This document shows positions 47,000-62,699 of a stretch of 64,000 nt of DNA, in pieces (the first letter of the stretch is position 1; the number at the start of each line of letters is the position of its first letter). Source of the stretch: Actinocorallia herbida (GTDB lineage: Bacteria > Actinomycetota > Actinomycetes > Streptosporangiales > Streptosporangiaceae); contig NZ_RJKE01000001.1 in assembly GCF_003751225.1 (NCBI RefSeq), positions 1,984,001-2,048,000 of the forward strand, given 5' to 3'. The position numbers were made by a program, and so were the translations under genes. The notes beneath the pieces were generated by a model, which did not search any database, was not told where the DNA came from, and saw only the letters and a list, made by a program, of their open reading frames with translations.

Positions 47000-47154
47000 G
47001 CTTGGTGTGGTTCATCATTCACCTTGAGTAATCGTCGACTTTGGGAGAAACTGCAGGTAGAGCGCTTGATCATCTGTTGGTCCGTAGCAGTCGGTGCCAG
47101 GCGCTCGCTCACAGTCCACGGTCAAACGACGGTCAGACGATCATGAGGTGCGAC

Positions 47155-48486
47155 ATGGGGTTCTCCCGGAAGCGTGCTGCCAAGAACGGCAAGCCGAGGT
47201 ACACGGCCTACTACACCGACCTCCGCGGCAGGGAACTGTCCGCAGGAACGTTCGCCACCAAGAAAGAAGCCGACAAAGCCTGGCAGAAGGAGGAGGCCAA
47301 GGCGGCCGAAGGCCACACGGGCGATCCGGCCCGAAAGAGACAGAGGTTCCGAAGATACGTGGAAGAGGAGTGGCTCCCGAACCACGTCATGGAGGCCACG
47401 ACCCGAGAGGGCTACACGTACTCGATCTACGCGCACATCATGGACTGGTTCGGCCCCCTGCGCATGATCGAGATCATGCCGAGCGACGTGCGCGCCTGGG
47501 TGAAGGACCAGCACGACCGCGGCTGCTCACCCGCCGTCATCCGCCTCAACAAGTCCATCCTCAGCGGCATCTTCACCACCGCCCTGAACGACCAGATCAC
47601 CGTCCTCCACCCCTGCAAGGGAGTGAAGACCCCGACGGTCCCGAAGAAGCCCCTGCGCATCGTCGCCCCCGAGGAGTTCGACAAGCTCTACGTCGCCCTC
47701 TCCTCAGACGACGCCCGCCTCCTCGCCGAAACCGCAATCGAGAGCGGAATGCGCTGGGGCGAACTCACCGAATTGCGAGTCAAGGACATCGACCTGACGA
47801 CCCGCATCGTCACCGTGAGCCGAACGGTCGTCGAGCTCAACCCCAAGAACCACCCGCAGGGCAAGCGGTTCCTCGTCAAGCAGTACCCCAAGGACCGCGA
47901 GTTCCGCCGCTTCAAACTCAGCCCCCACATGACCGCCAAGCTCAAGCACCACGTCGAGAGCAAGAAGCTGGGCCCCGAAGACCTGCTCTTCCTCCACCAG
48001 GAAGAAGCACCGGCCTTGAAGACGATTCCCGACCAGACGACTCCCCTCGGCCTAACGGACCCGAACGCCGCCGGCCGAAGCTACCGACACGGCACCCTCA
48101 GCGCCTACTCCGCCGGAAAATGCCGCTGCCACCACTGCAGAGGCGCCTACGCCACCTACCGCGCCCAACGCCGCCGCACCGGCAAAGACCACCCCCGCAA
48201 CCCCCGCACCTGGGACACCGACGGCCACATCCCCCGCCGCTGGTTCCGCGACCACATCTGGCGCCCCGCCCTCAAAACCTCCGGCCTGGACTTCAAAGTC
48301 CGAATGCACGACCTCCGCCACGCCCACGCCTCCTGGCTCCTAGCCGGCGGCGCCGACCTCCAAGTCGTCAAAGAACGCCTAGGCCACGGCAGCATCTCCA
48401 CCACCGAGAAATACCTCCACACCCTCCCCGATGCCGACGACACCGCCCTCGACGCCCTGGCCCGAACCCGCTCCCGCACCAGGTAG
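47155..48486 (+). CDS. int: Tyrosine recombinase (integrase) of the island
   Basis: The product has 443 residues: an AP2-like N-terminal arm-binding part (KPRYTAYYTDLRGRELSAGT), a SAM-like core domain, and a catalytic domain with Arg200 (ESGMRWGEL), His385-Arg388 (HDLRHAH), His411 (RLGHGS) and nucleophile Tyr420 (TTEKYLH). A Cys-rich insert CRCHHCRG (about 323-330) interrupts the catalytic domain, as in several actinobacterial integrases, and may bind zinc. ATG 47155 has GAGGTG just upstream. It lies next to the tRNA fragment, so it probably recombines there. No excisionase is seen. Confidence 0.92.
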   Translation: MGFSRKRAAKNGKPRYTAYYTDLRGRELSAGTFATKKEADKAWQKEEAKAAEGHTGDPARKRQRFRRYVEEEWLPNHVMEATTREGYTYSIYAHIMDWFGPLRMIEIMPSDVRAWVKDQHDRGCSPAVIRLNKSILSGIFTTALNDQITVLHPCKGVKTPTVPKKPLRIVAPEEFDKLYVALSSDDARLLAETAIESGMRWGELTELRVKDIDLTTRIVTVSRTVVELNPKNHPQGKRFLVKQYPKDREFRRFKLSPHMTAKLKHHVESKKLGPEDLLFLHQEEAPALKTIPDQTTPLGLTDPNAAGRSYRHGTLSAYSAGKCRCHHCRGAYATYRAQRRRTGKDHPRNPRTWDTDGHIPRRWFRDHIWRPALKTSGLDFKVRMHDLRHAHASWLLAGGADLQVVKERLGHGSISTTEKYLHTLPDADDTALDALARTRSRTR

Positions 48487-48764: not shown

Positions 48765-50782
48765 GGACCACCTCCGCCTGCGCGGAGCGAACTGGTGGCG
48801 GATCCGCGCGAGCGCCACGCAGACCGGACCGCCTCCGCCTGCGCGGAGCGAACTGGGTGACCTTCTTGAGCTCCCTGGTGGTCGCCGGACCACCTCCGCC
48901 TGCGCGGAGCGAACGTGACCTTGGCGCCGTAGTAGGCGATTGGGGGGCGGACCACCTCCGCCTGCGCGGAGCGAACGCTATGGCGGGCAACCCGATCGTG
49001 CTGATCGTCGGACCACCTCCGCCTGCGCGGAGCGAACGAGGGACGTCCACAGCGCGGACGGGATGGCCTCGGACCACCTCCGCCTGCGCGGAGCGAACAG
49101 GGCGAGCCTCAGCTCGATCCGCTTGAGGTTCGGACCACCTCCGCCTGCGCGGAGCGAACCTGATCGTGACGACCCTGAGCGAGTTCCGCGTCGGACCACC
49201 TCCGCCTGCGCGGAGCGAACGGCTCAGCCATGACCATGAACGTCAGGCCCGTCGGACCACCTCCGCCTGCGCGGAGCGAACGACTTCATGAACCTGAACC
49301 AGAACCCGTACACCGGATCACCTCCGCCTGCGCGGAGCGAACGAGAGCGCGGAACGCGCCCAGTACGAGAAGATCGGACCACCTCCGCCTGCGCGGAGCG
49401 AACCTCTTCTCCGGTAACAACCAGCGCGATTACGCCGGACCACCTCCGCCTGCGCGGAGCGAACGCCCTGGTGAACGGGACCACGAGAACCGGCTGCGGA
49501 CCACCTCCGCCTGCGCGGAGCGAACATGAACGGCTCCACCGCCCAGGCGAACAGCCACGGACCACCTCCGCCTGCGCGGAGCGAACCCGGCCAAGCGCAA
49601 CGCCGTCGCGATCGAACTCGGACCACCTCCGCCTGCGCGGAGCGAACGGCATGAACGGCTTGCCCATGAGCGCGGACACCGGACCACCTCCGCCTGCGCG
49701 GAGCGAACTCTTCGAGCTGGGCCGCGATCTCCTCGCGCTCCGGACCACCTCCGCCTGCGCGGAGCGAACACCAGCCGCAGCACCGGAGCCACCTGCACCG
49801 GCGGACCACCTCCGTCTGCGCGGAGCGAACGCGACGTTCCCGCCCTCGCTGACGGGGTTGGCCGGACCACCTCCGCCTGCGCGGAGCGAACGGTACCACC
49901 GAGCGCATCCGCGAGGGGCTCCTCGGACCACCTCCGCCTGCGCGGAGCGAACGCACCGGGTGGCCTCGGGCACAGCCATGCGGACGGACCACCTCCGCCT
50001 GCGCGGAGCGAACGCGTGCGAGGGCGGACCAGATCCCCCACAGGGTGGACCACCTCCGCCTGCGCGGAGCGAACCCCTCGCCGCGGACCCTGACCCCGTG
50101 GCGACCCGGACCACCTCCGCCTGCGCGGAGCGAACACCGACGAGGCCGGCGCCTGCGTGATCCGCAGCGGACCACCTCCGCCTGCGCGGAGCGAACAGCG
50201 ATCGGTGACGGCCAATGCAGTGGCCTCCCGGACCACCTCCGCCTGCGCGGAGCGAACCCGATCGGCCACCGCCCGCCCCATCCGATGAACGGACCACCTC
50301 CGCCTGCGCGGAGCGAACACCGCGACGTCCATGAAGTAGCCGACGACCGGCGGACCACCTCCGCCTGCGCGGAGCGAACTCGGGCGCGGCGTTCTCACGC
50401 ACCCACGTGGTCGGACCACCTCCGCCTGCGCGGAGCGAACAGGCCGAGGCTGTCGAGGTACTGGCGCACGACCGGACCACCTCCGCCTGCGCGGAGCGAA
50501 CTCCAGGGCTGGGATCACCAGCCCGCGCAGATCCGGACCACCTCCGCCTGCGCGGAGCGAACGACCGCGCGATCCAGGTCACCCGCGACAACGCCGGACC
50601 ACCTCCGCCTGCGCGGAGCGAACGTCGAACATCCCGACCCCCTCGCGGTAGGACGCGGACCACCTCCGCCTGCGCGGAGCGAACAGCAACAACAACCTGT
50701 CCCACCATTCGCTAAACAGACCCCAGGTGCGGGACGCTCGGCGGCGCGGGCGGCGGACCACCTCCGCCTGCGCGGAGCGAAC
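48765..50782 (-). CRISPR. Type I-E CRISPR array 1: 33 repeats, 32 spacers
   Basis: A 28-base repeat begins GGACCACCTCCGCC and ends GCGCGGAGCGAAC on the plus strand. The other strand starts GTTCGCTCCGCGC and ends GGTGGTCC, the usual type I-E orientation, so transcription is leftwards and the leader is at the right end. Spacing is 61 bases (33-base spacers), except one 34-base spacer (48915-48948) and a 70-base spacer beside the leader (50685-50754). Variant repeats start at 48826, 49315 and 49803, each with one base change. Apparent repetitive proteins over this region are artefacts. No cas gene is within the window. Confidence 0.98.
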
Positions 50783-51067: not shown

Positions 51068-51538
51068 TCAGGTCAGGGAGACCGGGTGTGCGGGTGGTCC
51101 GGTTTCCAGGTAGTCCCGGACGATGTCTCCGAGTTGTATGGGATAGATCGTTTGGTCGGCCTTGGTGATGTCGGTCAGGGTCCACCAGCGGTGTTCTTGG
51201 ATGTTGTCGGGGTGGCTGGCTTGCTCGGGGCGGACCTGGTCGAGGGCGATGTGTGCGGCGAAGTAGGTCTCGACCTGACGTGCGGGGCGGCCGCCGACGG
51301 GGTGGTCTTTGGTGCGGATCGCAAGTTCGGGGCCGAGGTCGACAGCGGTGATGCCGAGTTCCTCGCGGAGTTCGCGGGCGAGCGCCGTCTGTGGCGTTTC
51401 GCCGGGGTCGAGGGAGCCGCCTGGAGTCGCCCAGAAGCCGCCGTTCTCGTCGTAGCGCAGGAGCAGGACCCGGTGTTCGGGGTCGAGGAGGATGGCGCGG
51501 GCGGCTTTGCGGATGGGCGGCGTGGTCATGGCTCTCAT
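51068..51538 (-). CDS. NUDIX hydrolase
   Basis: The protein has 156 residues with a complete Nudix box: GGSLDPGETP followed by RELREELGI. It is last in the seven-gene operon: ATG 51538 forms an ATGA overlap with the carbamoyltransferase stop. Substrates of such enzymes are nucleoside diphosphates linked to another group. In this context it might hydrolyse an NDP-sugar, a nucleotide by-product or an adenylate. The plus strand just downstream (50940-51110) carries protein-like text (PFEFATDAPSEREISR) with an in-frame stop, perhaps a relic. Confidence 0.88.
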   Translation of the reverse strand: MRAMTTPPIRKAARAILLDPEHRVLLLRYDENGGFWATPGGSLDPGETPQTALARELREELGITAVDLGPELAIRTKDHPVGGRPARQVETYFAAHIALDQVRPEQASHPDNIQEHRWWTLTDITKADQTIYPIQLGDIVRDYLETGPPAHPVSLT

Positions 51539-53139
51539 GCTAGGTCGGCCTTCTCCACCAGGTAGGGACCGATGCACAGCGCGTCCAGGTCGGTGTCCTG
51601 GAAGGTCGCGAGGGCGTGTGCGGGGGTTTCCACGATCGGTTCGCGGTCGTTGAAGCTGGTGTTGAGCACGATCGGGACGCCGGTGAGGCGGTGCAGTTCG
51701 GTCAGGACGGGGGTGAGGGCCTGGTCGTGGTCGACGGTCTGGACGCGGGCGGTGCCGTCGGTGTGCAGGACCCCGGAGATCTCGCCGGGGCGGTCGGCCC
51801 GGGCCGGAGGCGCGAGGAGCATGAAGGGGGAGGGGGAGTCGAGGTCGAACCAGAGGTGGGCGTGGTCGGCCAGGATGGCGGGCGCGAAGGGTCGGAAGGG
51901 CTCGCGGTGCTTGATGCGGGTGTTGAGGGCGTCGGCGGCCGTGCGGTCGCGGGGGTCGGCGAGGATGCTGCGCTGGCCGAGGGCGCGCGGGCCGAGTTCG
52001 CTGCCGCCCTGGAACCAGCCGATGAGTCGTCCGTCGGCGATGAGCTGGGCGGCGGTGACGGCGATGTCGGTCTCCCGACGCCACACGAAGCCGGTGCGAC
52101 GTCGTTCGATGAGACCGGAGCGCGGGTCCCGGCGGAGGGCCGCCTCGATCTCGGCGTTGCTGTAGGGCCGACCGAAGGAATCGGCGGACAGCGGCCGGCG
52201 GGGGAGTTCGCCGGTGAGATGGTGCCAGGCCCACAGGGCGCAGCCGAGGGCCTGACCGCGGTCGCTCGCAGGCGGGGGAGCGAAGTAGGACGAGACGGCG
52301 GGCAGGCGGCGGATCCGGTCGGCGGCCACGCAGTTGAGAGCGACGCCTCCGGCGAAGCACAGGTCGGGCAACCCGGTGGCGGTGACGATGTTGGTCGCCA
52401 GGAGGCAGAGGGCGGCTTCGGTCTGGGCTTGGAGGTAAGCGGCGGCGTCGGTCCCGCGCGGATGGCGGCCGCGGCTGCCTGGCGGCCCGAAGTCCCAGCC
52501 GGTAGTGCGCGCGAGTTCGGCGACGCCGCGGGCGTGAGTGGCGGCCAGGCGGCCGCGGGCGTTGGTGCCCGTGATCTCGAAGAGGGGTTCGGGGTAGGCG
52601 CCCGGGTCACCGAGCGCGGCGAGCGCCATGGTCTTGCCAGCCTCCTGCTCGTGCCAGCCGAGCCAGTTGGTGAAGGCCTCATAGGTGGCGCCGATTCCGG
52701 CGGCACGCGGTCGATGGGGTGGGTTGCCGCCGAGCCTCTGGATGCCGTCTGGAGTGGCGGCGTAGAAGGTCTCCGTGTCGCCGCCGTTCCCGGCACCGTC
52801 GACGACCAGGACGGTCGCCTCCGCGGCGGGACCGAGGCAGTAAGCGGTGTAGGCGTGGGCGAGGTGATGGTCGACGGGCAGGACCGGGAGCTGCGCGAGG
52901 TGGTGCAGGCCGACGCGGGCGGGATCGGGAAGGGTGTGGCCGAGGCCGCTGACGGCGACCAGATCGATGCTGTCGAGGGTGAGGCCGGCGGCGCGCAGGC
53001 AGTACAGCAGGGCCGACTCCCAGCCGGGGCTGTAGCGGGTGCGGTTGAGCCGCTCTTCGCTGGTGGCGACCATGGTGTCCTCGGTGAGGAGGGCCGCTCC
53101 GCCGTCGTGGCCGAGGTTGATGCCGATCACCGCGGTCAT
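51535..53139 (-). CDS. NodU/CmcH-type O-carbamoyltransferase
   Basis: The product has 534 residues, the normal family length. The N-terminal Kae1-like part has GINLGHDGGAALL, VDHHLAHAYTAY with the metal-binding histidines, and LVVDGAGNGGDTETFY. The C-terminal YrdC-like part has GWFQGGSELGPRALGQRSIL and LNTSFNDREPIVETP. Such enzymes use carbamoyl phosphate and ATP to make carbamoyl-adenylate and transfer carbamoyl to a hydroxyl of an antibiotic, sugar or nucleoside (as in TobZ, CmcH and NodU). The start at 53139 overlaps the kinase stop, with GGAGG 8 bases upstream. Of the genes in the operon, this gives the clearest chemistry. Confidence 0.93.
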   Translation of the reverse strand: MTAVIGINLGHDGGAALLTEDTMVATSEERLNRTRYSPGWESALLYCLRAAGLTLDSIDLVAVSGLGHTLPDPARVGLHHLAQLPVLPVDHHLAHAYTAYCLGPAAEATVLVVDGAGNGGDTETFYAATPDGIQRLGGNPPHRPRAAGIGATYEAFTNWLGWHEQEAGKTMALAALGDPGAYPEPLFEITGTNARGRLAATHARGVAELARTTGWDFGPPGSRGRHPRGTDAAAYLQAQTEAALCLLATNIVTATGLPDLCFAGGVALNCVAADRIRRLPAVSSYFAPPPASDRGQALGCALWAWHHLTGELPRRPLSADSFGRPYSNAEIEAALRRDPRSGLIERRRTGFVWRRETDIAVTAAQLIADGRLIGWFQGGSELGPRALGQRSILADPRDRTAADALNTRIKHREPFRPFAPAILADHAHLWFDLDSPSPFMLLAPPARADRPGEISGVLHTDGTARVQTVDHDQALTPVLTELHRLTGVPIVLNTSFNDREPIVETPAHALATFQDTDLDALCIGPYLVEKADLA

Positions 53140-53969
53140 CGGGAGACCTCCGCTACCGAAGCCGGGTTCCACAGCCCGGCAGGTTCGGACGGCGGTCGAT
53201 GCAGGGTGCCGAGCTGGCAGATCTGGACGTGCCCGCCCCGCCAGGGCAGCAGGTCCGTGACGGGGTGTCCGAGGACGTCCAAGCCCCCGAGCGCGGCGTA
53301 GACGTCGGCGACCGTCTCGTGGAGCACGGGGCGGCCGGGCATCATCGGCCAAGTCGGGGTGAAGGGAAGTCCTGCAGCGGTCAGATGGGCGGAGATATGG
53401 GCGTAGACCTGGCCGGTGGTGAGGTTGTCGGTGTTGATGACGAGCGGCCGGTTGGGGCCCAGGCTTGGCGCGATGTCGCGGTAGAAGATGTGCAGCCGCT
53501 CCAGCAGGCCGCGGTCGTACCACCGGTCCCAGCGGGCCCGTTCGGCGGAGTTGCCGCGCCGGTCCAGGCTCACTTGGGGGCTGACCAGCAACACGATGGT
53601 GCGCAGCCGCTCCGACTGGTGCGGCTGCACGTGCCGCATGTAGAAGGCGAGGGCGTCGTCGTAGGGCATGGCGTCGCCGGGGTCGGCGGCGTAGCAGTAG
53701 GCCAGGGCGCCGAGGTGGTTGCGGTCGGAGACGATGAGGCCGGTTGCCGAGTCTTCGGCGAGTTCGCGGGTGCGGCGGGCCTGATCGGCCTCGCGCTTCA
53801 GGAACCAGCGCGAGAGGTCCGGGCCCGTGGCGTCGTGAGCGGTGAAGTGGTGGTTGGGCTCTGAGAACCACACCGCCGCGTCCAGGTAGGTGGTGGCGAG
53901 CTGGGAGATCAGGGAGGTCTTCCCCGCGCCGGGTGGCCCGTCGAATGCGGCGATCACGGGTTCAGACAT
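53136..53969 (-). CDS. P-loop nucleoside/nucleotide kinase-like protein
   Basis: The product has 277 residues. Walker A GPPGAGKT is at 11-18, and SDRNHLGALAYCYA resembles the DR-x loop of thymidylate and deoxynucleoside kinases. A lid-like arginine stretch follows (SLDRRGNSAERARWDRWYDR). The last 80 residues (WPMMPGRPVLHETVADVYAAL onwards) form an extra domain not seen in ordinary TMK. It likely phosphorylates a nucleoside, nucleotide or small sugar. Both ends overlap neighbours by 4-8 bases. Confidence 0.78.
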   Translation of the reverse strand: MSEPVIAAFDGPPGAGKTSLISQLATTYLDAAVWFSEPNHHFTAHDATGPDLSRWFLKREADQARRTRELAEDSATGLIVSDRNHLGALAYCYAADPGDAMPYDDALAFYMRHVQPHQSERLRTIVLLVSPQVSLDRRGNSAERARWDRWYDRGLLERLHIFYRDIAPSLGPNRPLVINTDNLTTGQVYAHISAHLTAAGLPFTPTWPMMPGRPVLHETVADVYAALGGLDVLGHPVTDLLPWRGGHVQICQLGTLHRPPSEPAGLWNPASVAEVSR

Positions 53970-54924
53970 GGATGCTCCCGAGGGTCGTGGTGATCCGGGC
54001 GAGGCCGAGGGCGAGGGTTTCGACCTGGACGGAGAGGGCGGCGCTGCCGGTCGACGTGCCGGACGTCAGCGCGTCGGCGACCGCGGCCCACATCGCGGTG
54101 AACGGATCGGCGTCGCCCGCGGGGCTGTAGGGGGCGGGCCAGCGAAGGTCGGCGGGGGCGTCGGGGCCGATCAGGTGGAAGGAGTCGGTGAAGACGCCGG
54201 GGCCGGGCCGGGCGATGACGATCGAGTAGGGCCTGCCGTGGTCGTCGGTCACGATGGCGTGTACGGCGTGGTCCGGACCGATCGCACAGGCTGCGGGGTA
54301 GGCGGGGCCGGCGACGGTCAGGAGAGAGGTGAGCTGGTGGTAGCCCTCCCACAGCAGCACCTTCAGTGCGGCTTCCTGGTGCGGGGCGAGTCCGTCGGGG
54401 ACGGGCTGGGGTGGGTCGTCGGTGAAGGTGTAGGGCGCGAAGCCTTCCGGAAGGATCCGGGAGCGGGCGGCGGCGTCGACGCCGTCGGCCTTGACCAGCC
54501 AGCCGCCCCGCACCGACGGCATCGTCGCTCTGAGGTCGTAGAGGGCGGGGTCGTGCATGCGCATTGCGCCGACCTCCAGGAGCAGGCCGCGCTGCTCGGC
54601 CTCGAGGCGGAGCCGCGCGGAGAGGGCCGCGTCGAGGGTGAGTGGCTTCTCGGTGAAGACGTGGACGCCCGCGGCGAGCGCCCCGGCGATGAGGACGTGG
54701 TGCACCCCGGTGAGGACGGCGAGCATGTCGGCACCGTCGAGCAGCTCCGGCAGCGTTCTTGCGATGGTGCCGACACCGAACTGATCGGCGGCGGACGTGG
54801 CACGCTCGCTCTGGCGGTCCAGGACGGCGGTGACGGTCCAGGCGGGCGAGGCGGTCAGCGCGGGCAGGTGAAGGCCGAACGCGGCGGCGCCGCATCCCGC
54901 CACGGCGATCTTGTGGGGCTTCAC
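53962..54924 (-). CDS. Gfo/Idh/MocA-family oxidoreductase
   Basis: The protein has 320 residues from GTG 54924, with GGAGG upstream and a GTGA overlap with the preceding gene. The Rossmann motif IAVAGCGAAAFGLHLPAL opens it, and VHVFTEKPLTLD carries the conserved Lys of the family. The C-terminal domain supplies the substrate site (LWEGYHQLTSLL, with a possible catalytic His). Such enzymes oxidise a sugar or inositol hydroxyl with NAD(P). Beside an isomerase-like gene it suggests tailoring of a sugar or cyclitol unit. Confidence 0.85.
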   Translation of the reverse strand: MKPHKIAVAGCGAAAFGLHLPALTASPAWTVTAVLDRQSERATSAADQFGVGTIARTLPELLDGADMLAVLTGVHHVLIAGALAAGVHVFTEKPLTLDAALSARLRLEAEQRGLLLEVGAMRMHDPALYDLRATMPSVRGGWLVKADGVDAAARSRILPEGFAPYTFTDDPPQPVPDGLAPHQEAALKVLLWEGYHQLTSLLTVAGPAYPAACAIGPDHAVHAIVTDDHGRPYSIVIARPGPGVFTDSFHLIGPDAPADLRWPAPYSPAGDADPFTAMWAAVADALTSGTSTGSAALSVQVETLALGLARITTTLGSIHV

Positions 54925-55766
54925 GATGCCTCCCAGCAGGTCTGGGCCCCGTGCAGGGCGCGGGTGCAGATCTCGTTCTCCGGCAGCGCCCGAAGGACGG
55001 GGTTGAACAGCTCGACCGAGACCGGCCCGGCATAGCCGCCCAAGGCCAGGGCTTCGGCGAACTCGGCCCAGGGCAGGTGGCCGCTGCCGGGGAACAGCCG
55101 TGCCTCGTCGGTCCACCGGTCCGTCGGCAGAGCTGGGGCGTCGGCGATCTGGACGTGGCCGATCCTCAGACCGGCGACTGCGGAGGGGTCCGCGCCGGTG
55201 GCGGCCCAGTGGAAGGCGTCGACGCACGCCTCGACGCGGGGCACGCGTTCCAGCAGCTCGGCGAGTTCGGGCAACGTCGACAGGACCGGGTTCGGGCCAT
55301 CAAGGTCGGCGGGCAGACCGCTCTGAACGCCGACGGCTTCGGCAGCAAGCACCACGCCGTGCTCGCCCGCGATCCGGGCCAGGGAGCGCAGCCGAGTGGC
55401 GGCGGTGGCCAGGGCGTCCTCGCGGGTGCGGTGGGAGCGGGGATTGACGACGATCGTGGCGACCGGGCAGCCGATCGTGCTCATCGCGGCCAGCCGCTCA
55501 TCCAGGCCTTCCAGTGCCTCGGAGAAGGAATCGACGAGGATCGGGTGCGGCAGGACGGGTCCGGCAGGCAGGAGACCGGAGGCAGCCGCCACGCTCAGGC
55601 CGAGTTCGCCCAGCAGGCCCGCGGTCTGGTCGGGGCCGTGGGCGAGGACCTGCTGGATGGGGACCTCGACCGAGGTGAAGCCCGCGGCGGCCGCGGCCAA
55701 GAGGAAGTCGGGCAGAGCGAGGCCGGACAGCGTCGCGGGATTGAGGCAGGGCGTGAGGGCGCTCAT
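54921..55766 (-). CDS. Xylose isomerase-like (sugar phosphate isomerase/epimerase) TIM-barrel protein
   Basis: The product has 281 residues of the AP endonuclease 2/xylose isomerase-like superfamily: FTSVEVPIQQVL, LAAEAVGVQS with a metal Glu, EACVDAFHWAATG with Asp and His, IGHVQIADAP and PVSVELFNP with the last metal Glu. Members isomerise or dehydrate sugars and cyclitols. The start at 55766 overlaps the MAT-gene stop (ATGA). With the Gfo/Idh enzyme it could form or reshape a sugar-like unit. The exact reaction cannot be read. Confidence 0.83.
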   Translation of the reverse strand: MSALTPCLNPATLSGLALPDFLLAAAAAGFTSVEVPIQQVLAHGPDQTAGLLGELGLSVAAASGLLPAGPVLPHPILVDSFSEALEGLDERLAAMSTIGCPVATIVVNPRSHRTREDALATAATRLRSLARIAGEHGVVLAAEAVGVQSGLPADLDGPNPVLSTLPELAELLERVPRVEACVDAFHWAATGADPSAVAGLRIGHVQIADAPALPTDRWTDEARLFPGSGHLPWAEFAEALALGGYAGPVSVELFNPVLRALPENEICTRALHGAQTCWEAS

Positions 55767-56986
55767 GCGGTGGCCAGCTTCCCGGCCAGCAGCTCCGTGC
55801 GCAGCGCGTCCAGATCGGCCATGACAGAGGTGACGACCTGGCGGACCAGGCGCGGCTCTGCGGGACCGGAGGTCTGGGCGAGGACCTGCCAGGGGTCGTC
55901 GAGGTCGCGGCCGGACTGGGAGACGAGCGCTATTGCCCACTCCTGCCCGGTGAGCACGTACAGTTGCTCGGCCGCGCGCTGGGCGGCGAGGTTGTAGAGC
56001 TTGCCGACGTGGTAGACGGGGTTCTTGCCCGAGACTCCCTCAGCGCTCCACGGCCGGAACATCGAGATGAGGCCGTTGGCGCGGTTGCCACGGCCGACGA
56101 CGCCCTCGTCCCCGGACTCGATGCTGGACCCGGTCGCGGTCAGGTACAGCTCCCGCCGGGCCTCGTCGTCGCGGGTGTTGACCGCGACCGTGATCCGGTG
56201 CCCCGGCGCGATGTCGTGCGCCAGGGCGAGGACGGTCTGGCGGGCGAGGTCACGGTGGGCGATGTAGGTGTCCAGGTCGGGGGTGTGGGCCGCGATCTGG
56301 GGCACGCAGCAGGTGAGGGAGATGTCCTGCTCGTTGCGGGCGACCATCAGCTTGACGTCGGTCCCGAAGCACGGGTGGGCGGCCAGGAAGCCGGGGGAGG
56401 TGAGGTGCCGCTCCACGGCCAAGGCGAGGCGCTCGGCGATGCTGTAAGGGGCATAGCCGACCCCGGCGCTGGTGTCGTTGGCGAACATCCTGCGCCGTTC
56501 GGCAAGGTCGTCGATGGTGCGGGGCGCGAACCAGAAGCGCCGGCCTGCCTCCTGCTGGTCGGTGTCTCCGTGCACGGCACCGGGGCTGGAAGCCGTGCTG
56601 ATGCGCCGCCGGACCTCGATGTCGTGGTCGACGTCCAAGAGCGGGAGCGCGTCGCCGAGGAACGCGCGGACGGTGCCGTCGACGAGGTCGTCGACGGGGA
56701 TGCGGTGGCCGCCGAGGGCGGGGGTGAGGCGGCCGTTGACCAGCACCTGGATCGGGGCAGTGAGGCGGCCGGCTCCGAAGGTCACCTCTGCGGCGCCGCC
56801 GAGCAGGGCGGTCTTGTCGGTGTTGTGGTGCAGGATCGCGCCGAAATGCTCCAGGCAGTAGGTGCTGTAGGCGCGGGAGACCGCTTCGGCGACGCCGTCG
56901 GCGAGGGCGTCGGGGTGCCCGGCGCCCTTGCGCTCGACCAGCTCCAGGCCGGGCGCGCTCGGCACGGTCACGGCGGAGACCTTCAT
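55763..56986 (-). CDS. Archaeal-type S-adenosylmethionine synthetase
   Basis: The protein has 407 residues. LVERKGAGHPDALADGVAEA, ILHHNTDKTALLGG (HHNTDK 53-58), SAGVGYAPYSIAERLALAVE, GSSIESGDEGVVGRGNR and GKNPVYHVGKLYNLAA follow the archaeal MAT family (AdoMet_Synthase) and not the bacterial MetK. It makes SAM from ATP and methionine, or acts on a related substrate. Actinobacteria normally carry a bacterial-type MetK for housekeeping, so this copy is probably pathway-specific and acquired. No methyltransferase or radical-SAM gene accompanies it. It overlaps both neighbours by four bases. Confidence 0.92.
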   Translation of the reverse strand: MKVSAVTVPSAPGLELVERKGAGHPDALADGVAEAVSRAYSTYCLEHFGAILHHNTDKTALLGGAAEVTFGAGRLTAPIQVLVNGRLTPALGGHRIPVDDLVDGTVRAFLGDALPLLDVDHDIEVRRRISTASSPGAVHGDTDQQEAGRRFWFAPRTIDDLAERRRMFANDTSAGVGYAPYSIAERLALAVERHLTSPGFLAAHPCFGTDVKLMVARNEQDISLTCCVPQIAAHTPDLDTYIAHRDLARQTVLALAHDIAPGHRITVAVNTRDDEARRELYLTATGSSIESGDEGVVGRGNRANGLISMFRPWSAEGVSGKNPVYHVGKLYNLAAQRAAEQLYVLTGQEWAIALVSQSGRDLDDPWQVLAQTSGPAEPRLVRQVVTSVMADLDALRTELLAGKLATA

Positions 56987-57978
56987 CGTGTGTTCTCCTT
57001 CGCGGGATCGTTCATGGGTCGGGGAGGGAGCAGGTGCTGCCCGGACAGCAGGAGCCGGGCCTTCTCGGCCCGGTAGGCGGCGATGCGGGCGAGGTCACGC
57101 AGCCCGGTCACCGCGTCGGTCGGGCTCGTGAACGCCCACGAGCCGACCAGGCAGCCGAGCGCGTCCTGGACATCGCCGCGGTCGGCTCGGATCGCGGCGG
57201 GCTCGACGTGGACGCTGGTGTGCATGCGGGCGAGGCTGACGCCGTGTCCGATGCCCTGGCGCAGGTAGTAGGCGAGCGTCGTTTCAGACCGGTAGATCGG
57301 GTGCACGGCGTGCGCCGCGGGCTCGATCAGGATTCGCAGGCCGCGCTGGCGCGCACGGTCGAGGAACTCCAGGTCCTCGCAGTCGCCCATCCACCGGCCG
57401 CGCCGTCCGAGATCGGTGCGCAGCAGGCCGATCTCCAGCGCGGTCTGCCGGTGGAAGATGAGGTTGCAGCCCGTCACCCAGTATGGCCACAGCGCCTCGG
57501 CTCGGTCGGACGGCCACCTCACGGCGCCGTGGCATTCGGCGAGCACCGGGGAAGCGAAGCGCGCGCCCTGCGGGTACTCCACTGTGGTGCGGCCGCCGAC
57601 CGCGAACACCTTCTCAGCGGTGATGGCGGCGGTCAGAGCCTCAAGCCACAGCGGATCGGGCATCACATCGGGATCGATGAAGGCCACATAGGTTCCGCGC
57701 GCCGCACCGATTCCGCGGTTCTTGCCCGCGCTCAGTCCCGCCCGCGGTTCGCGGACTACCCGAACCGGGAACGGCCGGCTACGGCCCATGACGAGCCGTT
57801 GCACCCGACGGACGGGCCCGGGCGGGTCGTTGTCCACGATCACCGCCTCCATGCACCCCGGCGCGAACGCCTGCTCGCCGAGCGCCTCCAGTAGATCCGG
57901 CAGGCGCTCGCGGCTCGCTCCGCGTGCGCTGACCACCACCGATGTCGTAGGGCGGTCGGATCTCGCCATCTTGGGCAT
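56983..57978 (-). CDS. Family 2 glycosyltransferase
   Basis: The protein has 331 residues from ATG 57978 with GGAGGTGAGG upstream; a second ATG is at 57969. A GT-A fold begins at TTSVVVSARGASRERLPDLL; EAVIVDNDPP, SAGKNRGIGAARGTYVAFID and PDV follow with the DxD-like Asp pair. WVTGCNLIFHRQTALEIGLL and WMGDCEDLEFLDRARQRG hold the acceptor-side ED. It should move a sugar from an NDP donor to an acceptor, perhaps the compound that is carbamoylated. It is the first gene of the seven-gene operon. Confidence 0.87.
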   Translation of the reverse strand: MPKMARSDRPTTSVVVSARGASRERLPDLLEALGEQAFAPGCMEAVIVDNDPPGPVRRVQRLVMGRSRPFPVRVVREPRAGLSAGKNRGIGAARGTYVAFIDPDVMPDPLWLEALTAAITAEKVFAVGGRTTVEYPQGARFASPVLAECHGAVRWPSDRAEALWPYWVTGCNLIFHRQTALEIGLLRTDLGRRGRWMGDCEDLEFLDRARQRGLRILIEPAAHAVHPIYRSETTLAYYLRQGIGHGVSLARMHTSVHVEPAAIRADRGDVQDALGCLVGSWAFTSPTDAVTGLRDLARIAAYRAEKARLLLSGQHLLPPRPMNDPAKENTR

Positions 57979-58050
57979 CGCCGCCTCACCTCCTTCTCCG
58001 AGGAGCCTCGCGGCGGCGGGCCGCTCGCCCAACAGCGATTCGTCATGGGG

Positions 58051-58074
58051 ATGTGACCAACGGTCAGGCCACAT
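58051..58074. promoter_or_regulatory. Nested inverted repeat in the divergent promoter region
   Basis: TGACC-AAC-GGTCA (58054-58066) lies inside ATGTG...CACAT (58051-58055 and 58070-58074), about halfway between the GT2 start (57978) and the regulator start (58178). This is a plausible site for the Xre-type regulator to control both directions. Binding is inferred. Confidence 0.45.
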
Positions 58075-58177
58075 CGGCCTAACAGATCGCCATGCCGCGG
58101 TTACGGTGTCGGCAGGGCTGATCACCACAGGACTCGCGCCGGTCGGCGACGGGGACACACGCTCGCGGAGGCGGCGG

Positions 58178-59605
58178 ATGAGTCAGACGGCGAAAGAGCG
58201 GCTCTGCCCGGCGTGCCGACGCACACGGGTCTCGCGGTACAACCCCGATCCGCTTTGTGCGCCCTGCCTTTCGGAGGCCCGCGCACGTGGCCACGCGCCC
58301 GGCTGGCTTTGGGACTCGGAGCTGCTGCGAGAAGCCCTGGCGCGCGCGGACATGGCCGCGGTCGTCGCCGTGATCCGAAGCGCGTGCGAGATGTCGCAGC
58401 TGGAGTTCGGCCAGCTCCTCGGCTGGAGCCAATCGGTGGTCACCAAGGTCGAGCGAGGGGAGCGGCGCACCGCCTACGACATCGCCGAGATCCTGCGAAT
58501 CGCCGACGCCCTCGGAATGCCGCGCCATGCCCTGATCCCGCTGGTCCTGGGTGCAGATCACCGCAACGGAGGGCAGGATGAGGACGACGCCCGCAGGTTC
58601 TGGGAATCGGACGAGAACGTGGATCGACGGCACTTCGGCCAGACGGCCCTCGGCACGGCGCTCGCCGCCACGCTGCCCCCACCCGCGCGCGTCGACCATG
58701 GGCATCTGCGCTATCTGCATGCCTGCCTGAACCGCCTGCGCAGCGCGGACGCCGCCGCCGGAGGCAGAGGCGTCCTGCGCGAGGCCATCGCGACATACCG
58801 GCGCGCCCGCGCCATGCTCGACGACAGCGACTACACCGAGCAGACCGGCCGCGAGCTCTTGGCCGTCACCGCGGACCTCGCGATCGTCGCCGGATGGCTC
58901 GCCTACGACTCAGGAGACCAGCACCTGGCCCGCACCCTGTACGAGCAGGCAGATCATCTCGCGGCCTCCAGCGGCGTCGTCCCCATCCAGGTGCACGCGG
59001 CCGTGAACCTCGCCCAGCAGGCCACCCACCTTGCCGCTGCCACCGGGAAACGCGGATACGCCCGCGAGGCACTGCGGTTCAGCGACCGTGCCGCCGCGGT
59101 TGCTCGCTACGAGGCCTCTTCATCCCTGCACGCGCTCATCTCACTCCGGCAAGCACTCGCCCACGCCCGTCTCGGCGACCGGCTCGCCTTCGATGAGCAC
59201 ACCGGTCATGCCCGCCGCGCGCTGGACCACGACCACGGAGACCAGTTGCCCTGGACCCGGTTCATCACCCAATCGGAGATCACCGGCTACCAGGCCATGG
59301 GCGCCGAAGCCCTCGACGAGCCAGGCCGGTCCGTCACCCTCTACCTCGACGTCCTCGCCGACAAGAACCGCTCACCACGGGACCTCACCGTCTACCGCGC
59401 GTACCTCGCCGGTGCGCTCTGCACGGTCGGTGACCTCGACACTGCCGTATCCCAGGGCCTTCAAGCACTGGGGGACCTCGGTGCGTCCCTGGGCTCGGCC
59501 CGAGTGCTGCGCACCCTCGCACCGGTGCGGAACGCCTCGCCCGACGAGGAATTCCGCACCCGATTCGACGCCGCCGCGCGCGACTTCCCGGCTCTCACCG
59601 CATGA
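58178..59605 (+). CDS. Xre-type regulator with zinc ribbon and TPR-like sensor domain
   Basis: The product has 475 residues in three parts. A CPAC...CAPC zinc ribbon (Cys10, 13, 27, 30) comes first. Then an Xre helix-turn-helix follows (about 58-115: CEMSQLEFGQLLGWSQSVVT, KVERGERRTAYDIAEILRIA). The long helical C-terminal part has TPR-like repeats (AGWLAYDSGDQHLARTLYEQ, AREALRFSDRAAAVARYEAS). Regulators of this layout govern antibiotic clusters in streptomycetes. It is divergent from the seven-gene operon, with 199 bases between them, and its stop overlaps the GNAT gene. It probably controls both units. Confidence 0.87.
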   Translation: MSQTAKERLCPACRRTRVSRYNPDPLCAPCLSEARARGHAPGWLWDSELLREALARADMAAVVAVIRSACEMSQLEFGQLLGWSQSVVTKVERGERRTAYDIAEILRIADALGMPRHALIPLVLGADHRNGGQDEDDARRFWESDENVDRRHFGQTALGTALAATLPPPARVDHGHLRYLHACLNRLRSADAAAGGRGVLREAIATYRRARAMLDDSDYTEQTGRELLAVTADLAIVAGWLAYDSGDQHLARTLYEQADHLAASSGVVPIQVHAAVNLAQQATHLAAATGKRGYAREALRFSDRAAAVARYEASSSLHALISLRQALAHARLGDRLAFDEHTGHARRALDHDHGDQLPWTRFITQSEITGYQAMGAEALDEPGRSVTLYLDVLADKNRSPRDLTVYRAYLAGALCTVGDLDTAVSQGLQALGDLGASLGSARVLRTLAPVRNASPDEEFRTRFDAAARDFPALTA

Positions 59606-60162
59606 CCGCCGACCTGACCTTCCAAAGGCTCACCGCCGCTCAAGCACGTGCCCACCGTGACACCGTCCAAGACGTCCACGCCGACGCCTACGCCGAGACG
59701 CTGACAGACCCGTTCCGCGCCGGCTCCGAGTTCATGCGCCGCTTCGACACCTACACCAGCCGCGAGCACTTCGATTTCGTCTTCGTCCTGGCTGACGGCC
59801 ACATCGTCGGCCAGGCATGGGGGTGGCCGCTCCCACCCGACACCGCCTGGTGGAACGGCCTGGACGCAGAGCCCGAACCAAGCTTCACCACCGAAACCGG
59901 CACCCGCACCTTCGCCCTCTCCGAGATCATGGTCCGCCGCGCCTGGACCGGCCGCGGCATCGCCCACGCCCTCCACAACGAACTCCTACGCCACCGCCCC
60001 GAACAACGCGCAACCCTCCTGGTCCGCCCCACCAACCCCGCCTACCCCGCCTACCTCCGCTGGGGCTGGCACCCCGTCGGCCGCCTACGCCCCGACCTAC
60101 CCCACGCCCCCACCTTCGATGCCCTGATCCTTTCCCTCCGCAACGACGACCAGGAGCCTTGA
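59602..60162 (+). CDS. GNAT-family acetyltransferase
   Basis: The protein has 186 residues. ALSEIMVRRAWTGRGIAHAL is motif A, with the acetyl-CoA pyrophosphate loop (RRxWTGRGI), and PTNPAYPAYLRWGWHPVGRL is motif B. The ATG overlaps the regulator stop (ATGA). In this setting it may acetylate the pathway product, as in self-resistance, or an intermediate. The substrate cannot be read from sequence. Confidence 0.85.
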   Translation: MTADLTFQRLTAAQARAHRDTVQDVHADAYAETLTDPFRAGSEFMRRFDTYTSREHFDFVFVLADGHIVGQAWGWPLPPDTAWWNGLDAEPEPSFTTETGTRTFALSEIMVRRAWTGRGIAHALHNELLRHRPEQRATLLVRPTNPAYPAYLRWGWHPVGRLRPDLPHAPTFDALILSLRNDDQEP

Positions 60163-61329: not shown

Positions 61330-62699
61330 GGACCACCTCCGCCTGCGCGGAGCGAACACGCTGTCGGAGGTCCCGTAGTAGGCGAGGAGCGGACCACCTC
61401 CGCCTGCGCGGAGCGAACGCGACCATGGCGGCGAGGATCTCGTGCTTGGGCGGACCACCTCTGCCTGCGCGGAGCGAACACCTGGAGCACCAAGGCCGAG
61501 GCCCTTAAGGACGGACCACCTCCGCCTGCGCGGAGCGAACCCGCGCATGCTGGCCAGATAGGTCGCGGGCGCCGGACCACCTCCGCCTGCGCGGAGCGAA
61601 CGTGGCGCCAGCGACGACGTCGGCGTACTCGTCCGGACCACCTCCGCCTGCGCGGAGCGAACGAGAACCGAGGGACACCCCTGGCCGGGGTGCTCGGACC
61701 ACCTCCGCCTGCGCGGAGCGAACCCCCATCGCGTCGAGGGCGGCGACGGGCTCGGCGGACCACCTCCGCCTGCGCGGAGCGAACAGCCGCCGCCACCGCG
61801 CGCTTCGTGACCCCGCCGGACCACCTCCGCCTGCGCGGAGCGAATGCCCCGCACGTCCTCTACGTCGGGCTGTCGAACGGACCACCTCCGCCTGCGCGGA
61901 GCGAACTGGTTCGTCGACATCGCCAAGCGGTTCGACAACGGACCACCTCCGCCTGCGCGGAGCGAACGGCGCGAAACCGAAGAAGAACGGTTCCATCGCC
62001 GGACAACCTCCGCCTGCGCGGAGCGAACGGAAGGGAGGCCCTGAGTCCCAGGCTCAGGGCCGGACCACCTCCGCCTGCGCGGAGCGAACTGCGAGCGGCC
62101 CCGCAGAGTGAACGCCGCCGCCGGACCACCTCCGCCTGCGCGGAGCGAACGCAGGAAATGTCGGCAGCATCCTCGGCTCCGTCGGACCACCTCCGCCTGC
62201 GCGGAGCGAACTCGACGGCGCCGCCGAACTGGTGCGGCGCGAACGGACCACCTCCGCCTGCGCGGAGCGAACGAGCTCGGCCCAGCGGGCGATGGTGTGC
62301 TCGGCGGACCACCTCCGCCTGCGCGGAGCGAACGAGGTGCCTGCCGTCCGGTTCGAAGACCTGCTCGGACCACCTCCGCCTGCGCGGAGCGAACCACCAC
62401 GGCGTCGAGGTCGGGCACGTCGACGCCGGACCACCTCCGCCTGCGCGGAGCGAACGACGAGCACACCCGTGTCACCCGACACGAACAGGGACCACCTCCG
62501 CCTGCGCGGAGCGAGCGACTCGACCTGGCGGCGTTCGGCGTCGTAGCGCGGACCACCTCCGCCTGCGCGGAGCGAACATCAGACGGCGGAGGTTCTGCCA
62601 CACGTCACACGGACCACCTCCGCCTGCGCGGAGCGAACATCAGACGGCGGAGGTTCTGCCACACGTCACACGGACCACCTCCGCCTGCGCGGAGCGAAC
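61330..62699 (-). CRISPR. Type I-E CRISPR array 2: 23 repeats, 22 spacers
   Basis: It has the same 28-base repeat as array 1, with strict 61-base spacing. By repeat strand and leader it is also read leftwards. Single-base variants occur in the repeats starting at 61452, 61818, 62001 and 62489. The two spacers next to the leader (62578-62610 and 62639-62671) are identical over 33 bases, so the newest repeat-spacer unit is duplicated. No cas gene is seen. Long repetitive frames across it are artefacts. Confidence 0.98.

Follow-up and report, generated by a model that had tools for sequence, protein, structure and literature searches.

Here, we describe a seven-gene operon of the actinomycete Actinocorallia herbida, located in a 64,000-nucleotide stretch of its genome (the window; contig NZ_RJKE01000001.1, positions 1,984,001 to 2,048,000 of the forward strand; the genome is one contig of 9.8 Mb). 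The operon encodes a family 2 glycosyltransferase (GT2), an archaeal-type methionine adenosyltransferase (MAT), a xylose-isomerase-like TIM barrel (XI), a Gfo/Idh/MocA oxidoreductase (GFO), a P-loop kinase (KIN), a NodU/CmcH-type carbamoyltransferase (CBM), and a NUDIX hydrolase (NUD). This fixed seven-gene pathway is common to Streptomyces, Frankia, Actinomadura, Streptosporangium, and others, as well as to linear plasmids, and the seven genes very probably form a biosynthetic unit. Our best explanation of the whole, at just under even confidence, is that the operon is biosynthetic, self-contained, and horizontally mobile and that in most loci it comes with a divergent regulator of its own. 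This reading is based on fixed gene order, joint evolution, spread over genera and plasmids, intact motifs, and a promoter repeat present in 9 of 15 loci.

Operon structure, conservation, and movement

Gene families were assigned with Pfam and NCBIfam profiles. The operon spans 6.9 kb of the minus strand and begins with GT2 (56983..57978, 331 amino acids [aa]; PF00535, E value 1.4e-14), whose start is preceded by a strong ribosome-binding stretch (GGAGAAGGAGG). It continues with MAT (55763..56986, 407 aa; PF01941, E value 6.9e-104), XI (54921..55766, 281 aa), GFO (53962..54924, 320 aa, GTG start; PF01408), KIN (53136..53969, 277 aa; thymidylate-kinase fold with a C-terminal extension), and CBM (51535..53139, 534 aa; PF16861 and PF02543) and ends with NUD (51068..51538, 156 aa; PF00293, E value 2.3e-21). 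From GT2 to NUD, the junctions overlap by 4, 4, 4, 8, 4, and 4 bp, and gene calls and profiles agree with the first-pass annotation of the window, which had described seven minus-strand genes of these families overlapping at every junction. In comparison with the congener Actinocorallia sp. API 0066, the ratio of nonsynonymous to synonymous substitution rates ranged from 0.14 (CBM) to 0.52 (NUD) and was below 1 for all nine genes (the seven plus a divergent regulator and an acetyltransferase, described below), a pattern that fits purifying selection.

A CBM alignment was scanned over 84,980 species genomes, restricted to those with one of two peptide patterns, and yielded 47 loci. Twenty-two had at least 64% identity; L104 was removed (the match covers 40 residues), and 21 were kept, including L092 with a match of 239 residues. 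All seven genes were found in the same order and on one strand in 17 of these 21 loci, from Streptomyces, Frankia canadensis, a Micromonosporaceae metagenome-assembled genome (MAG), Streptosporangium, Microtetraspora, Sphaerimonospora, Actinomadura, and Actinocorallia (the contig end truncates GT2 in L067, the GFO frame is interrupted in L071, where it is split over two frames, and CBM is split in L073). In one locus (L074), the contig end falls inside GFO, and three are reduced, to CBM and NUD only (L066), to a broken CBM and NUD (L082), or to a kinase stretch with a broken CBM (L092). The same operon with a divergent regulator was found on two Streptomyces linear plasmids, and the operon is additionally present in L042 and L122 (in the latter, GT2 matches in two frames). 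The co-occurrence of the seven genes in other genomes, which the first-pass annotation had proposed as a check, is thus borne out by 17 loci and both plasmids.

Among 297 genomes of the host's family, 37 carry an archaeal-type MAT of any kind, 8 of them at 68% identity or more; the KIN model matches 9 (one weakly; G216, 70 bits), and full-length CBM of at least 66% identity was found in 9, while G289 has a 255-residue piece. NodU-type carbamoyltransferases occur in 226 of the 297 and are therefore no marker. Five family genomes have all seven genes on one contig (G000, G002, G062, G127, and G188); G084 lacks only the GT2 start, at a contig end, and in G126 one contig carries GT2, MAT, XI, and a portion of GFO and a different contig carries KIN and CBM. 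Counting against perfect linkage are G278 (MAT alone, within another cluster), G212 (KIN, CBM, and NUD but no front genes), G222 (CBM and NUD only), and G216 (a second cluster type). No PF01941 match was found in G001, one of two other genomes of the genus, and in a class-wide sample the KIN model matches 4 of 394 genomes, window included. The operon is rare and patchily distributed. Across 19 loci, the pairwise distances of the seven proteins show correlations of 0.72 to 0.93, and the Frankia copy is nested in Streptomyces with a support of 1.0 (FastTree of joined proteins), so the seven-gene block seems to move whole among soil actinomycetes and plasmids.

Flanks of 20 loci were compared over a maximum of 9 kb, with the upstream side mostly spanning 3 to 5 kb and contig ends shortening some flanks. 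In 14 of them, GT2 has a related XRE/TPR regulator as its divergent neighbor, and a second XRE group, part upstream and part downstream, was seen in 6; every other flank family occurs in at most 3. Judged by eye, the recurrent flank families, which were not Pfam scanned, include no transporter, methyltransferase, or resistance gene. In the 9 loci that have it, the direct repeat GCAACA-N5-GCAACA precedes GT2 by 76 to 124 bp, and it was found nowhere else in 287 kb of 14 fetched loci. Genome searches gave 2 to 4 sites, including one ahead of the operon, in each of five of six genomes and none in the window genome; with the reversed control, G188 had two sites and the other five genomes had none.

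A further reduced copy, L118 (8700-13131), keeps KIN, CBM, and NUD and has lost the front genes. Upstream of its KIN is a stretch resembling the end of the second Gfo/Idh gene that precedes KIN in L038, and the GCAACA repeat is lacking. Retention of all three tail genes in L118, and of CBM and NUD in L066, raised the idea of a tail immunity module, which is weakened because L118 retains that Gfo/Idh-like stretch without the promoter repeat and because CBM is broken in L082 and L092 and partial in L119. Chance decay explains the tail-only loci equally well.

Enzymes and proposed pathway

The archaeal-type MAT named by the first-pass annotation stands, with 348 bits against a PF01941 cutoff of 27. 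Its residues were mapped to TkMAT through an alignment with 6s81; H24, H53, N55, D210, Y281, and D293 are invariant across 20 sequences, so that, going by the catalytic and methionine/ATP-binding residues named in PMC3853416, it shares with the archaeal enzymes of T. kodakarensis and M. jannaschii the PF01941 family, the catalytic His, the Met-carboxylate His and Asn, the ribose Asp, and the stacking Tyr. Unlike these, it is bacterial and operon-borne and has an 18-residue lid-loop insert relative to 6s81. The insert lies in the region of the TkMAT lid pair Asp144/Leu145, where a DL pair can be aligned in two ways. The operon MAT family has Ser or Ala where 7p83, the M. jannaschii enzyme, has Ile; 7p82 has Ala here, presumably an engineered pocket change. 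A wider pocket is just a hint, as the engineered nature of this Ala is presumed and the lid alignment is ambiguous.

CBM carries both carbamoyltransferase domains over cutoff, and its best solved relatives by profile are NovN-type, TobZ, and GdmN; it is not NodU by the NCBIfam equivalog (127.4 bits against a cutoff of 1,000). Stretches HHL.HA, DGAG, and SE(L/F)GPRALG are common with 9s2t, whereas the N-terminal part is shorter than in these relatives, and the neighbors are unlike those of aminoglycoside, coumarin, and ansamycin clusters. The best NCBIfam match of GT2 is MftF, at 82.5 bits far under the cutoff of 280. In XI, E143, D183, H204, and E252 are invariant across 20 sequences and presumably are the Glu, Asp, His, and Glu metal ligands as in IolI. 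The closest solved structures to GFO are a sugar 3-ketoreductase (3rbv) and, lower, DgpA, and its EKP motif and H196 are invariant across eight sequences. KIN has the fold of thymidylate kinase; in Pfam at an E value of 0.01, only PF13521 is over its cutoff, with PF13191 under it, and a sequence profile against the PDB gave nothing significant (best E value, 0.02). Its tail appears by eye to contain a putative LGFP-like repeat (the VIA rows span residues 2 to 202 only). NUD has a full Nudix box, read from the alignment against the consensus GX5EX7REUXEEXGU.

From these families and folds, the chemistry suggested by the first-pass annotation (sugar or nucleoside chemistry, glycosylation, and O-carbamoylation) is reasonable. 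GT2 would transfer a sugar to a small acceptor, GFO would oxidize the sugar at C3, and the XI-like metalloenzyme would epimerize or isomerize the keto sugar, which GFO, or a second Gfo/Idh where present, might reduce back as in the YcjS/YcjR/YcjQ route. CBM would add an O-carbamoyl group, KIN may phosphorylate a nucleoside- or nucleotide-like intermediate, NUD may trim a nucleoside-diphosphate-linked species, and MAT could supply S-adenosylmethionine (SAM) or an adenosyl group to a nucleoside-like scaffold. The predicted product is an O-carbamoylated rare-sugar glycoside, perhaps of the nucleoside type. A carbamoylated product is probable; keto-sugar remodeling falls somewhat short of an even chance, and a nucleoside-type product is possible and a shade more doubtful.

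The route differs in several respects from ycjQRS of E. coli (3-keto-glucoside epimerization). The operon adds GT2, MAT, a kinase, a carbamoyltransferase, and a NUDIX hydrolase; its XI is closer to IolI and 3u0h; and the ycj phosphorylases and transporter, as given in PMC11543891, are not in the operon. The ycj pathway has an XI-like epimerase and two Gfo/Idh enzymes, against one Gfo/Idh per full operon locus, with space for another in 7 of 21 loci (confirmed as Gfo/Idh where searched, in L038). No description of the seven-gene cluster was found in the openly licensed literature; within that scope, the statement in the first-pass annotation that no described pathway has this combination holds, and the pathway is probably undescribed.

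Several points weigh against this reading. The structure matches of GFO reach just the first 137 or so profile positions (the N-terminal cofactor domain), which lowers our confidence in keto-sugar remodeling and, a little, in the explanation as a whole. For XI, IolI and 3u0h outscore YcjR, so a reaction on inosose or another ketose is equally open. KIN has no Pfam thymidylate-kinase match and therefore is not classed as a thymidine monophosphate kinase; a shared fold leaves the substrate unfixed. The second Gfo/Idh is missing from most loci, and the order of steps and the acceptor are our proposal. In the flank survey, judged by eye and with its short upstream reach, no recurrent transporter was seen, and no SAM-using gene recurs alongside MAT, leaving SAM without a visible consumer. 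Finally, the GCAACA repeat is absent from 6 of 15 loci, the window among them.

The operon probably makes a small sugar-bearing molecule not yet described and is therefore a good target for a new natural product; at 6.9 kb, it is small enough for whole synthesis and expression, so that the product is directly searchable.

Alternative explanations

An intact-looking MAT without a SAM consumer poses a sharp enzymology question, to which self-protection is one answer, unlikely in our view. MAT would then be an insensitive, distantly related copy of the housekeeping SAM synthetase and the product an inhibitor of bacterial MetK or a mimic of SAM or methionine. The lack of a SAM consumer in the operon fits, and the window genome also encodes an ordinary bacterial MetK (PF00438) elsewhere. 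Related MATs stand beside tRNA-synthetase paralogues, in one cluster type with APH-like, SerRS-like, and GT4 genes (L039, L044, L045, L046, L048, and L055) and in another with sulfatase-like and class I tRNA-synthetase-like genes near a GluRS gene (L050 to L053), which would fit target duplicates; the synthetase paralogues, however, may equally be biosynthetic. MAT is the second gene within a biosynthetic block, and in the reduced loci L066 and L118 tail genes persist without it, both of which speak against a protective role.

Open-frame reading and a Pfam subset showed no SAM-using enzyme as a member of the SerRS-type or class I-synthetase-type MAT clusters inspected. Contrary to that absence, genes beside MAT in L054, and one on the dnd side in L039, look methyltransferase-like by eye. 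L047 and L049 fit neither of these cluster types, and in L051 and L053 XRE and NUDIX genes lie on the other side of the MAT cluster.

Slightly less likely still, MAT would build the scaffold itself, joining the adenosyl group of ATP to a methionine-like thioether, from which the six other enzymes would make a glycosylated, carbamoylated nucleoside. Such a role would account for the lack of an accompanying SAM-using enzyme and for the lid loop and one pocket position altered relative to archaeal MATs. If true, it would be a natural-product route using SAM chemistry as a backbone source rather than a methyl donor.

The operon might instead be catabolic and break down glycosides in the manner of Dgp or ycj, with its Gfo/Idh and XI-like enzymes opening a keto glycoside as a carbon source; we consider this improbable. 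GFO resembles DgpA in the cofactor domain, XI resembles YcjR, and a beta-elimination route employing Gfo/Idh- and XI-like enzymes is described in PMC10628242. Against this, GT2, the carbamoyltransferase, and MAT are building, not degrading, enzymes, and by eye the recurrent flank genes include neither a transporter nor a glycosidase.

An antiphage system or small-molecule defense is the least credible reading and very improbable: the operon has a CRISPR array on either side and cas genes farther right, and a related MAT cluster adjoins dnd genes in L039, but seven of the nine proteins had no PADLOC match (the others being NUDIX, 39.5 bits, and the regulator helix-turn-helix, 21.6 bits), the congener locus has no copies of this CRISPR repeat core, and the chemistry belongs to a metabolic pathway.

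Regulatory genes, surroundings, and related clusters

The divergent XRE/TPR regulator (58178..59605, plus strand, 475 aa) matches the NsdA-family model NF053720 at 181.8 bits (cutoff, 75) and falls far under the cutoffs of the NsdA and NsdB equivalog models. Its N terminus has CxxC pairs (a zinc ribbon by eye), followed by an XRE helix-turn-helix and an NsdA-family TPR region. A distance of 199 bp separates the starts of the regulator and GT2, and between them lies a candidate operator, the inverted repeat TCAGGCCACATCGGCCTAA (58064..58082), a near-identical copy of which precedes GT2 in the congener in place of the GCAACA repeat. An accessory GNAT acetyltransferase (59602..60162, plus strand, 186 aa; PF00583) overlaps the regulator gene by 4 bp, in agreement with the coupled divergent pair of the first-pass annotation. 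Acetylation as possible self-protection, also suggested there, was discarded: among the loci searched, GNAT is present only in the window and the congener (L036/L058), so it is no part of the system.

Two CRISPR arrays of one repeat flank the operon, with 32 and 20 exact core copies (core starts, 48772-50762 and 61337-62679; unit, 61 bp). The annotated position of the operon, between two arrays, is thus correct; as a feature of the system it was ruled out by the congener locus, which lacks this repeat core (other repeat kinds were not sought there). A phage-type integrase gene (47041-48486) lies immediately left of the first array. Right of the window (L125, 5379-11659) are Cse1, Cas_CT1975, Cas5, CRISPR_assoc, and Cas3-HD genes, plus more repeat copies; a profile search of the whole window genome found no Cas1 (PF01867).

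In L039 (2587-15815), a MAT 70% identical to that of the window is accompanied by the APH-like, SerRS-like, and GT4 genes and adjoins dnd DNA-sulfur modification genes. Archaeal-type MATs of this actinomycete family occur in several small clusters with a carbamoyltransferase or with tRNA-synthetase paralogues, which points to a metabolite group that scaffold-based mining may miss.

The second cluster type (L075 to L077; Nonomuraea and Streptomyces) shares with the operon GT2, a carbamoyltransferase (53 to 56% identity), a related kinase, and, in L075, a NUDIX gene. In contrast, no MAT, XI, or Gfo/Idh was found in L075 to L077; L075 and L076 have a GT4-APH fusion, and L075 carries PhyH, transketolase, and nucleotidyltransferase genes. 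Carbamoyltransferases of 37 to 41% identity occur in Bacilli, Clostridia, and candidate-phylum MAGs, with NUDIX-like genes within a few kilobases in L078, L080, L081, and L084 (by profile) and L079 (by eye). A P-loop gene in L078 is weakly thymidylate-kinase-like (25.3 bits, under the cutoff of 27, over residues 7 to 24 only). In candidate-phylum MAGs, a dehydroquinate-synthase-like cyclase gene adjoins the NodU-type carbamoyltransferase (L081, 7244-8335, by Pfam; L084, 11607-12701, by eye).
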